This document shows, in pieces, positions 8,463 to 23,736 of a DNA stretch of 64,000 bases. The DNA comes from Phyllobacterium myrsinacearum (lineage in GTDB: Bacteria; Pseudomonadota; Alphaproteobacteria; Rhizobiales; Rhizobiaceae), in the NCBI RefSeq assembly GCF_002980555.1, contig NZ_PVBT01000002.1, forward strand, positions 1 to 64,000. Direction: 5' to 3'. Made by a program: the position numbers and the translations under genes. The notes under the pieces are model-generated. The model was not told where the DNA came from. It searched no databases and saw only the letters and a list, made by a program, of their open reading frames with translations. Each line of letters begins with the position of its first letter. Positions within the stretch are counted from its first letter, which is position 1.

Positions 8463-9305
8463 TTATTTGCACCACTTATATTCGTATTGTGGCGAACTGG
8501 ACGGAACTACTTTTCGGTCGCGGTAAATTATCGAACTTGTCTTGCCGCGCGCCGCGCAAGCGGCATTGAAAAAGCTTATTGGATCAACAGGCGCACCGTT
8601 CGCATCCTTATCGTTGTCGTTATACTCGATTTCGTAAACTAAATTTCCATATCCGCCGGAGTAGGCATCGCATTCCGAAAAAACTTGGCACTCTTCCACG
8701 ATTGCGAAATCGAAACCGATCTGCGACGCGCCAATGGATACCAGACTGGATGTATTTTTTTGCGCAATTGCGAGTTTGGCAGAATGCGCACGATTGACCA
8801 GCAATTTCGCAAATTCCTTATTGCTGGCTTCTGTTAAAACGCCTTTGGAGCGTGCAAAGGAGTCAAGATTGTCCGGTTCGACCGCATTGAAACCATCCGC
8901 AGCGCACTTATCAATCCAGGGACCAACTATCGCTATGAGCGCCGAACGCTTCGTCTCCGTAGACGTATCCATCAGATATTCGTCCTCCCATTTTGGATCG
9001 GTAACATACTCACCGTTTTTCTTAACCAATAACTCCGGATGATTTGATTTCCACCAATCAGCATCGGCCGGCTGGGTTTGAAAAGTATTCACGTAGCAGA
9101 TGTTGTATTTACCAGGGACAGGTGTAACTCGCCGGTCGCGAACAACGACTGCTACCTGGTTTAGAGGGGTATATTCGCCTCCAAGCTGATAATCGAATTG
9201 GCCATGAGCTGGTGGCAGTGTCACAGCTTGAGCATTGACCGAGAAAACAATATTGCTCGTTGCGACGATGGCGAGAACCGCCTTTCGAAACCATAGTACT
9301 CTCAT
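8463..9305 (-). CDS. secreted GH114 endo-alpha-1,4-polygalactosaminidase
   Basis: This 280-residue exported glycosidase starts with a signal peptide (LAIVATSNIVFSVNAQA) followed by the GH114 fold. Diagnostic stretches are FDYQLGG (37-43), YNICYVNTFQTQPA (67-80), WEDEYLMDTS and GFNAVEPDNLDSF (138-150) with the acidic catalytic pair, then LAIAQKN. Family members cleave alpha-1,4-linked galactosamine polymers such as fungal galactosaminogalactan. The gene lies 200 bp from gatZ on the same strand and next to a locus with AgaS, GH4 and DeoR genes. This context suggests the secreted enzyme provides the oligosaccharides that the locus imports (inference). The family is less common in alphaproteobacteria than in actinobacteria and fungi, to my knowledge. 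Confidence 0.85.
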   Translation of the reverse strand: MRVLWFRKAVLAIVATSNIVFSVNAQAVTLPPAHGQFDYQLGGEYTPLNQVAVVVRDRRVTPVPGKYNICYVNTFQTQPADADWWKSNHPELLVKKNGEYVTDPKWEDEYLMDTSTETKRSALIAIVGPWIDKCAADGFNAVEPDNLDSFARSKGVLTEASNKEFAKLLVNRAHSAKLAIAQKNTSSLVSIGASQIGFDFAIVEECQVFSECDAYSGGYGNLVYEIEYNDNDKDANGAPVDPISFFNAACAARGKTSSIIYRDRKVVPSSSPQYEYKWCK

Positions 9306-9507
9306 TTGGGGTGATGACCTTGTCTGGCTGTTTTCCCCGCCTCGAGCAGGTCGCTCTGGCGTGGCAAGTGACGGATTGGATACCGGCTGGGAACAGCTGG
9401 AACATTTGTGACTAGTCCGTAAATTGTCGTCAAGGGGGATTACAACATTGAATGCAAGAGCGTGCTTTCCTTTGGCGGTTTGATATGAGGCACATCTTCT
9501 GCTCCTC

Positions 9508-22036: not shown

Positions 22037-22918
22037 ATGAGTGCCCTAAGGCCAATGGGATCCGAACGCTGGTGGGTTTGGCTTTTCCTTTTACCCACGC
22101 TTCTTGGCTTGGCGTTGGGCACTTTCGGGTCGATCTTCGCGACTATTGGCCTGAGTTTCACCAATTGGGATTTGCTGACGCCACCGCAATGGGCAGGGGT
22201 TGATAATTACGCCGATCTTCCTGCGGGCAGGATGTTTACCAAAGCGTTCTGGAACACGCTGGCATTTTCGGGCCTCTATGTCCCGCTCACGGTTGTGCTG
22301 TCGTTGGTTGTGGCGATCGGCCTCAACCGGCGGATAAAGGGTATCGGCTGGTTTCGGGTGATGTATTTCCTGCCGGCGGTTTGCTCGCCAACGGCGACGG
22401 GCCTTCTATGGAACTGGATCTATGCCCCGGACAACGGTGTTCTCAACGCGGCTGTTACTGCTGTCGGAGTATCACCAGTCAGTTGGCTTGGGCCGCGCAT
22501 GGCGCTTTATTCAATCGTTGTCGTCAACGTCTGGGGTGCCATCGGTGGCGGAATGATCATTTTTTTGGCCGGATTGCAGGCGATTCCAAAGGAGTACTTC
22601 GAGGTAACGCGGCTGGACGGAGCAACTGCCTGGCAAAGGCTGCGTTTCGTGACCTTGCCAGCCTTGGCACCCAGTCTGTTTTTCCAGACGGTGCTGACCA
22701 CAATCAATGCCTTCCAGGCATTCGATTACATCTACGTGCTGACAAGTAGCGGAAATGGCAATTCGACCATGCCAACGCTTGTATTCTCGATCTATCGCAG
22801 CGGGTTTCGGTTTTTCCGCATGGGGGATGCAGCAGCGCAGGCTGTTGTGCTGACGGCAATGATTTTCGCGCTCACGCTTGTCTATTTCCGGCTTCAAAAG
22901 AAATGGGGTGAAGCATGA
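22037..22918 (+). CDS. CUT1 ABC transporter permease (set 2, first)
   Basis: This 293-residue permease has six membrane helices and the EAA loop EYFEVTRLDGATAWQRLRFVTLPALAPS. It begins right after the binding-protein stop (TGA then ATG at 22037). It pairs with the next permease. Confidence 0.92.
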   Translation: MSALRPMGSERWWVWLFLLPTLLGLALGTFGSIFATIGLSFTNWDLLTPPQWAGVDNYADLPAGRMFTKAFWNTLAFSGLYVPLTVVLSLVVAIGLNRRIKGIGWFRVMYFLPAVCSPTATGLLWNWIYAPDNGVLNAAVTAVGVSPVSWLGPRMALYSIVVVNVWGAIGGGMIIFLAGLQAIPKEYFEVTRLDGATAWQRLRFVTLPALAPSLFFQTVLTTINAFQAFDYIYVLTSSGNGNSTMPTLVFSIYRSGFRFFRMGDAAAQAVVLTAMIFALTLVYFRLQKKWGEA

Positions 22919-23736
22919 TCCGAAAGAACAAAGCTGACTGGGCAGCGTTCCTTGCCCTTTCGGCAGGTGCCATAGCCATGGTCGGGCCGTTCATATGGTT
23001 GATTTCGACAAGCTTGAAGCCAATGGCGGAACAGTTCGACATGACGCTCGTGCCGCGTCATCCGACCCTTGCAAACTATATCGAACTCTTTCACATCATG
23101 CCGTTCCATCTGCTAATCTGGAACAGCTTGAAAATATCGGCGATCTCGACGCTGGGGCAATTACTGACCTGCTCAATGGCGGCTTTCATCTTTGCGGTTG
23201 TGCGGTTTCCAGGACGCAATGTTCTTTTTGCCTTGCTGCTCCTCACGCTCATGGTCCCGGCGCAGATCACCGCCATTCCGCAATTCATAATATTCAAGTT
23301 TCTCGGACTCTACGGAACGCAGGCGCCACTCTATGTACCTTCGTTTCTGGGAGGCGCTTTTGGAACGTTCCTGATGCGGCAGTATTTCCAGACGATACCG
23401 CTTGAACTGGCGGAGGCCGCGCGGATGGATGGTGCATCGCTCTCACGGATATTCTTTACAATCTACCTGCCGCTGGCAAAACCGGCGCTGGCTGCATTTG
23501 CCATTATCGCCTTCATGTTCTCCTGGAACGATCTTTTTACAGCGCTTATCTACCTGCCGTCCGATGTGGAAAAAACGACACTGACCGTTGGTCTTGCGCT
23601 TTTCCAGACTCAGTATTCTGGTCACTGGACCCTCATGATGGCGGCTTCCGTGATTTCCGTCGCCCCGATAGTGATTGCCTTTTTCCTGGCGCAGAAACAT
23701 TTCATCTCAGGCATGGCGATGACTGGAATGAAGTAA
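22915..23736 (+). CDS. CUT1 ABC transporter permease (set 2, second)
   Basis: This 273-residue permease has six helices and the EAA loop ELAEAARMDGASLSRIFFTIYLPLAKPA. Its ATG overlaps the previous stop by 4 bp (ATGA). It is the last gene of the cluster; a stem-loop follows 40 bp later. No ATPase follows it. Confidence 0.92.
   Translation: MIRKNKADWAAFLALSAGAIAMVGPFIWLISTSLKPMAEQFDMTLVPRHPTLANYIELFHIMPFHLLIWNSLKISAISTLGQLLTCSMAAFIFAVVRFPGRNVLFALLLLTLMVPAQITAIPQFIIFKFLGLYGTQAPLYVPSFLGGAFGTFLMRQYFQTIPLELAEAARMDGASLSRIFFTIYLPLAKPALAAFAIIAFMFSWNDLFTALIYLPSDVEKTTLTVGLALFQTQYSGHWTLMMAASVISVAPIVIAFFLAQKHFISGMAMTGMK

Follow-up and report, generated by a model that had tools for sequence, protein, structure and literature searches.

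A putative galactosamine regulon of Phyllobacterium myrsinacearum with a locally added GH114-type hydrolase

Does the gene cluster at positions 8463–23736 of a 64,000-nucleotide stretch of Phyllobacterium myrsinacearum DNA (the window; NZ_PVBT01000002.1, assembly GCF_002980555.1) serve the use of a galactosamine polymer? The cluster encodes a glycoside hydrolase of family GH114, a porin, two sugar importers, a GH4 glycosidase, a BadF-type kinase, an enzyme of the SIS superfamily, a GatZ-like epimerase and a DeoR-type regulator (Table 1), and the original prediction saw in it a full path from polymer to fructose-6-phosphate. The analysis favors, with a probability of about 0.62, a regulon for galactosamine and α-galactosamine oligosaccharides to which a GH114 front end was added locally. 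That the locus is a galactosamine regulon is likely. That it serves the use of a galactosamine polymer is plausible, with support from the fact that hydrolases of the fitting family were acquired more than once.

Twelve of the fourteen genes, and a conserved operator with them, have the appearance of a unit for the breakdown of a galacto-shaped amino sugar. All the predicted open reading frames were found in place, and the families assigned to them score far above their cut-offs. By gene content alone the cluster corresponds to an ATP-binding cassette (ABC)-type polysaccharide utilization locus, with a secreted endo-acting hydrolase, an importer, an exo-acting hydrolase, catabolic enzymes and a regulator. 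Importer A consists of the solute-binding protein SBPa and permeases A1 and A2, and importer B of SBPb and permeases B1 and B2; the proposal of two importers holds for these two sets, but a single ATPase gene of the UgpC type is present for both.

The GatZ of the window is 46% identical to E. coli GatZ and retains D87, H88, E171 and H257, the site residues given in the accessible part of PMC11907403. With a score above the cut-off of its equivalog model and the zinc and base residues kept, it is assigned by sequence to the tagatose-6-phosphate 4-epimerases, in agreement with the original prediction. Both E. coli GatZ and KbaZ have fructose-6-phosphate/tagatose-6-phosphate C4-epimerase activity according to the same accessible text (PMC11907403). 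The SIS protein was predicted to be an AgaS-like isomerase/deaminase, which stands at the level of the superfamily (PF01380) but not of the AgaS NCBIfam model, against which it scores 79 bits with a cut-off of 529.2; the GlmD model gives 137 bits with a cut-off of 580. The protein may nevertheless work like AgaS, and a route from the kinase through the deaminase to tagatose-6-phosphate and fructose-6-phosphate is likely. No AgaA deacetylase was found among the window reading frames scanned, as predicted, but a NagA above its cut-off is encoded elsewhere in the genome (G000:C1:375696-376835).

The distribution of these genes was followed in 87 distinct core loci. A scan of species genomes with an SIS alignment confirmed 426 stretches, of which the best 80 were used; the window, two further family genomes (L039 and L045) and four plasmid records complete the set. 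Eight of the ten family loci L036–L045 lie on the same contigs, by equal length, as members of L054–L133 and were counted once. Gene presence was called by tblastn score limits set by the author, below which a divergent aldolase or glycoside hydrolase could fall; in addition, a distant gene could escape notice in the 16 stretches that do not reach 18 kb. On this basis DeoR is present in 85 loci, BadF in 81, GatZ in 74, SBPa in 70 and GH4 in 40. In the type I layout, seen in 8 loci including the window, GH4, UgpC, SBPb and the permeases lie behind the SIS gene; in type II, mostly from Rhizobium, GH4 precedes DeoR; a third layout has no GH4, for which no match was found in 47 of the 87 loci.

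A PF03537 (GH114-type) hydrolase accompanies the core in only four of these loci, and GH114 is therefore accessory and not ancestral to the locus. Its place as a conserved part was rejected, and the expectation that orthologous loci of relatives would carry GH114, on which the original prediction had staked itself, largely failed. A Fisher test of PF03537 presence against GH4 presence over the 87 loci gave p 0.04, with kinship not accounted for. In a sample of 297 genomes of the family, PF03537 occurs in 23 genomes and the SIS orthologue in 11, the organism's own genome included; the two co-occur only in the latter and in genome G103, where the PF03537 match is weak and lies on another contig. 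None of the four other genomes of the genus in this sample has the SIS orthologue, and the locus is thus patchy. The SIS gene was also found on 72 plasmid records (E up to 1e-40), 66 of them from Rhizobium; in the four that were opened (one from Rhizobium) the locus is annotated only generically. Isolates with close loci include Rhizobium sp. Leaf453, Pelagibacterium sp. H642 and Deinococcus psychrotolerans. In genome G147 the GH114 gene (L051, 9410-10259) is split into two overlapping frames, possibly through gene decay or a sequencing error.

From the loci, 31 divergent regions were extracted, and in these a conserved operator with TGATTG-type half-sites separates gatZ and deoR. The position weight matrix (PWM) built from these regions includes that of L091, which was mis-anchored (3.0 bits); the L091 operator was found on a later scan at 42.5 bits. 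The two copies in the window are the sole exact matches to the pattern in the 5.4-Mb genome. With up to two mismatches the pattern occurs in four places, three of them within the locus, while the reversed-pattern control gave 0. When 12 loci, some of them from the PWM set, were rescanned, L180 and L080 had no site at 12 bits, and two other Deinococcota loci had weaker sites (31.7 bits in L181 and 30.3 bits in L109). The operator copies of the window flank the porin gene, one on each side (10790-12563). Because the operator is duplicated on both its sides, the porin seems to have been inserted into an ancestral divergent gatZ/deoR promoter region; it is present in 1 of the 87 core loci and represents a local addition.

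The window GH114 has an N-terminus that resembles a signal peptide, as judged by eye, and keeps the catalytic pair D145 and E204, aligned with D157/E225 of FsGH114, whose residue numbers were matched by counting to the accessible section 3.4 of PMC12054363. The catalytic Asp and Glu columns are invariant in all 15 aligned sequences. The fungal GH114 enzyme Ega3 is described in the accessible part of that paper as highly specific for deacetylated galactosamine stretches (PMC12054363). The window gene lies on the gatZ strand; the gap between the two contains no terminator-like site, in a promoter and terminator scan that performed at chance level (5 and 4 sites versus 4.7 and 6.6 in shuffles). 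GH114 could be expressed by read-through from gatZ. Its partner in the tree, 66% identical, is carried by a Phyllobacterium plasmid and lies outside any core locus.

Similar hydrolases have joined the core elsewhere. In L078, a metagenome-assembled genome of Rhodobacteraceae, permease B2 is followed after 11 bp by a GH114 gene (17396-18175) of like orientation. In the tree the window GH114 groups with the Phyllobacterium copy (98/98), and the L078 GH114 with two copies from the family Rhizobiaceae (91/94); since they fall in different groups, their recruitment was separate. Two Deinococcus plasmid operons show the order DeoR-PF03537-ABC-BadF-SIS-class II aldolase-PfkB, and also contain GH4 and a Gfo/Idh/MocA protein but no GatZ. 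Both carry a long form of PF03537 similar to the MJ1477/TM1410 (GH191-like) group; the D. psychrotolerans operon has a second, GH114-like PF03537 gene. PF03537 hydrolases appear to have been recruited to the core on three or more occasions: in the window, in L078 and on the Deinococcus plasmids. In the two Deinococcus loci the PfkB kinase and class II aldolase, a pair of the kind that acts on tagatose-6-phosphate, would stand in for GatZ, an exchange to be expected if the SIS enzyme makes tagatose-6-phosphate; a glucosamine route would need neither.

The Gfo/Idh/MocA protein occurs in three Deinococcota loci (L180 13940-15244, L181 15553-16824 and L109 10978-12252). It shares its fold with the NAD-dependent GH109 enzymes and is perhaps a second exo-enzyme. 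In Deinococcus ficus (L183 7169-9606) and Deinococcus sp. QL22 (L184 8173-10706), pairs of PF03537 genes lie a few genes from pelF, within what look like Pel-type synthesis loci.

The GH4 of the window scores above the cut-off of the α-galactosidase subfamily model NF011657, as predicted, which is uninformative on α-galactosaminides. In the GH4 tree, 37 proteobacterial locus GH4s form one group (SH-aLRT 91). Neither E. coli MelA nor the 11 GH4s taken from ten loci that lack SIS and GatZ matches fall within it; MelA groups with 8 other locus-free GH4s (support 92), and the Deinococcus pair branches separately. This is a quick tree of 39 of the 40 locus GH4s (L045 was left out) with several long branches, and supports of 91 and 92 are moderate, below the starred level of 95.

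Relatives of SBPb were found in 8 of the 87 loci, all 8 with GH4. Four of these (L085, L091, L098 and L179) have no SBPa in the stretch; L179 has in addition an importer in divergent orientation, accompanied by a gene for a glycerophosphodiesterase. As entry in these four type I loci is otherwise seen only through importer B and GH4, the sugar used by the kinase should be the one that GH4 sets free, and if that sugar is galactosamine, GH4 would be an exo-α-galactosaminidase. A literature search on GH4 with galactosaminidase found, in the sources it covered, no report of GH4 activity on a 2-amino sugar. An Amidohydro_2 (PF04909) gene lies between UgpC and SBPb in six of the eight type I loci (L074, L078, L085, L091, L098 and L179), the window and L055 being the two that lack it; its product may carry out a deacylating step.

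Taken as a pathway, the secreted GH114 would cleave deacetylated stretches of an environmental α-1,4-galactosamine polymer, such as galactosaminogalactan from fungi or a biofilm polysaccharide of the Pel type, and the products would cross the outer membrane via the porin. Importer B would then take up the oligomers and importer A the monomer, the UgpC ATPase driving both. In the cytoplasm GH4 would split the oligomers to galactosamine, which the BadF kinase would convert to galactosamine-6-phosphate, the SIS enzyme to tagatose-6-phosphate by deamination and isomerization, and GatZ to fructose-6-phosphate. DeoR would act on the two operator copies, which have the same pattern, and so repress two promoters, and GH114 would be co-expressed only through read-through from gatZ. 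The substrates, the order of the steps, localization, DeoR binding and the co-transcription of GH114 we infer from the genes and their arrangement. The path proposed originally is retained in part, with the galactosamine-type route, the replacement of GatZ in Deinococcus and the repeated recruitment of GH114 in its favor, but with GH114 and the porin as local additions; as a whole the original prediction is partly supported. A wider claim is more tentative, at somewhat less than even odds: that polygalactosamine systems were assembled separately in the rhizobium family, Rhodobacteraceae and Deinococcus by addition of a GH114- or GH191-like enzyme to a galactosamine regulon, with GH4 as cytoplasmic exo-α-galactosaminidase.

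A number of observations weigh against the assignment to galactosamine and its polymer. The search of the 87 core loci gave no PF03537 gene for 83 of them, and the predicted neighborhood of GH114 and core genes, which holds in the remaining four, did not extend to 10 other close GH114 genes from 397 genomes of the order, none of which has core genes in its stretch (four of the ten lie at a contig end, with one side unseen); nor was the core present, by annotation, in the 7 of 24 GH114-bearing plasmid records that were opened. GH114 is separated from gatZ by 202 bp and has no operator 5' of it at 8 bits or more in the PWM scan. The accessible part of PMC12054363 reports that attempts to obtain well-behaved soluble protein failed for six bacterial GH114 candidates, with E. 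coli as host, and that FsGH114 showed no activity on Pel; an environmental GH191 enzyme cleaves Pel (PMC12054363). Within the core, the SIS protein matches the glucosamine-6-phosphate deaminase model better than that of AgaS, both below cut-off. GatZ was not found in 13 of the 87 stretches, and in 11 of these, some of them short contigs, no class II aldolase was seen either, which leaves the tagatose-6-phosphate exit unseen; the aldolase was seen in the two Deinococcus loci only. The Deinococcus aldolase and kinase are both below tagatose-specific cut-offs, and L109, a third Deinococcota locus (from a metagenome-assembled genome), has PfkB without class II aldolase or PF03537. Uptake and catabolism of galactosamine have been predicted in rhizobia via S. 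meliloti genes, according to the accessible parts of PMC4961836, PMC6421345 and PMC4207669, and Smb21216-21221 and Smb21373/21374 resemble the present locus in their proposed substrate and in rhizobial ABC uptake (PMC4961836, accessible part). However, no orthologue of the window SIS gene was found in S. meliloti pSymB, whose only two SIS matches are KpsF-type arabinose-5-phosphate isomerases, and the best match there to the R. leguminosarum SBPa is 28% identical. The S. meliloti prediction is therefore not transferable, and pSymB was rejected as an experimental link to galactosamine.

The low count of PF03537, the lack of an operator of its own, the close relatives outside core loci and the absence of GH114 from 10 relatives in the family survey would all be expected if the core served only galactosamine and small galactosaminides and GH114 stood beside gatZ by chance, with another role. 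We consider this unlikely in view of the separate recruitment in L078 and two Deinococcus operons: about 0.03 GH114 genes are expected in the roughly 1.6 Mb of proteobacterial loci inspected (a hand estimate from 24 match rows in 297 genomes of about 5 Mb, from the window's family only), and 2 were found, one being the window itself. Recycling of a Pel polymer made by the organism is likewise unlikely, since PelG was not found in the genome; a different polymer of its own could still be recycled.

The substrate itself could be different. A locus for α-galactosides of the melibiose or raffinose type, with a MelA-like GH4, would account for the subfamily score of GH4, but is very improbable, as it leaves the kinase, the amino-sugar SIS enzyme and GatZ without a role, and GH4 stands apart from E. 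coli MelA with moderate support and was not found in more than half of the core loci (47 of 87). An N-acetylated or gluco-shaped sugar, that is, a route for N-acetylgalactosamine or glucosamine, is suggested by the NagK-like kinase and GlmD-like SIS enzyme (both below cut-off), by NagA elsewhere in the genome and a NanE-NanK gene close by, and by the Amidohydro_2 gene of most type I loci, though it is absent from the window. This too is improbable: a gluco-shaped sugar gives fructose-6-phosphate directly, making GatZ or PfkB and aldolase needless, and the reading frames of the window locus include no deacetylase (the flanks of other loci were scanned in part).

The preferred galactosamine regulon has partial counterparts in known systems. 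The aga/kba pathway of E. coli runs through tagatose-6-phosphate and resembles the locus, by annotation, in its AgaR/DeoR-type repressor, the SIS-type galactosamine-6-phosphate deaminase/isomerase AgaS and a KbaZ/GatZ-type protein. It differs in that AgaS, KbaY and KbaZ act with phosphotransferase uptake and a tagatose-bisphosphate aldolase, while the window has ABC uptake, a kinase and GatZ alone, and its SIS protein is only 27% identical to AgaS. The galactitol pathway of Agrobacterium is not known to include an SIS or glycoside hydrolase enzyme, and its entry sugar is a polyol. There too GatZ converts tagatose-6-phosphate to fructose-6-phosphate, as cited in the accessible part of PMC11907403. 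The endo-galactosaminidases Ega3, FsGH114 and that of Pseudomonas sp. 881 have their family and catalytic pair in common with the window GH114; fungal Ega3 helps to mature the polymer at the surface of the cell (PMC12054363, accessible part), whereas the window enzyme is bacterial and encoded beside an uptake operon. A literature search whose coverage leaves out most subscription journals found no described locus of this make-up, in line with the original prediction.

Table 1. Genes and operator copies of the locus (window positions).
Feature	Position	Strand	Evidence
GH114-type endo-α-1,4-polygalactosaminidase (putative), 280 aa	8463..9305	-	PF03537 1e-48, 166 bits (cut-off 27); Ega3 6oj1 E 7e-13
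GatZ/KbaZ-like tagatose-6-phosphate 4-epimerase	9508..10767	-	TIGR02810 587.3 bits (cut-off 568.8); PF08013 569 bits
Operator copy 1, 5' of both GatZ (-) and porin (+)	10790..10835	+	PWM 59.6 bits
Porin_2 outer-membrane porin	11226..12284	+	PF02530 330.7 bits
Operator copy 2, 5' of DeoR operon	12518..12563	+	PWM 58.1 bits
DeoR/AgaR-type regulator	12596..13396	+	PF00455/PF08220; AgaR model 168 bits, under cut-off 260
BadF/NagK-like sugar kinase	13321..14340	+	PF01869 86 bits; NagK model 85 bits, under cut-off 370
Solute-binding protein A, SBPa (CUT1)	14337..15587	+	PF01547 (SBP_bac_1)
Permease A1	15584..16489	+	PF00528 (BPD_transp_1)
Permease A2	16309..17340	+	PF00528 (BPD_transp_1)
SIS amino-sugar-6-phosphate deaminase/isomerase (putative)	17327..18298	+	PF01380; 1j5x glucosamine-6-phosphate deaminase E 1e-32
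GH4 NAD-dependent α-glycosidase, proposed cytoplasmic exo-α-galactosaminidase	18312..19631	+	PF02056/PF11975; PRK15076 629 bits (cut-off 486)
UgpC-type ATPase	19594..20697	+	NF008653 494 bits (cut-off 432)
Solute-binding protein B, SBPb, proposed oligosaccharide binder	20789..22036	+	PF01547 (SBP_bac_1)
Permease B1	22037..22918	+	PF00528 (BPD_transp_1)
Permease B2	22915..23736	+	PF00528 (BPD_transp_1)

The listed reading frames of BadF, permease A2, SIS and UgpC overlap the upstream genes or exceed their relatives in length, and their annotated starts are probably too early. The true start of BadF is probably near 13393 and that of permease A2 near 16489; for SIS, the alignment points to 17354.

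Directly after the locus lies a second amino-sugar cluster (window 24639-31583) with an RpiR-type regulator, a solute-binding protein, a permease, an ATPase and a fused NanE-NanK, which combines N-acetylmannosamine-6-phosphate epimerase and kinase. A NanE-NanK fragment is also found near core locus L075.

Most of what is known about galactosaminogalactan and Pel, both cationic polymers of biofilms, comes from studies of the organisms that produce and trim them. A dedicated catabolic locus, if true, would mean that other bacteria eat these polymers, with a testable substrate for each enzyme. It would also give a defined role to bacterial GH114 and GH4, and explain what is encoded by a core locus often found on the plasmids of Rhizobium.

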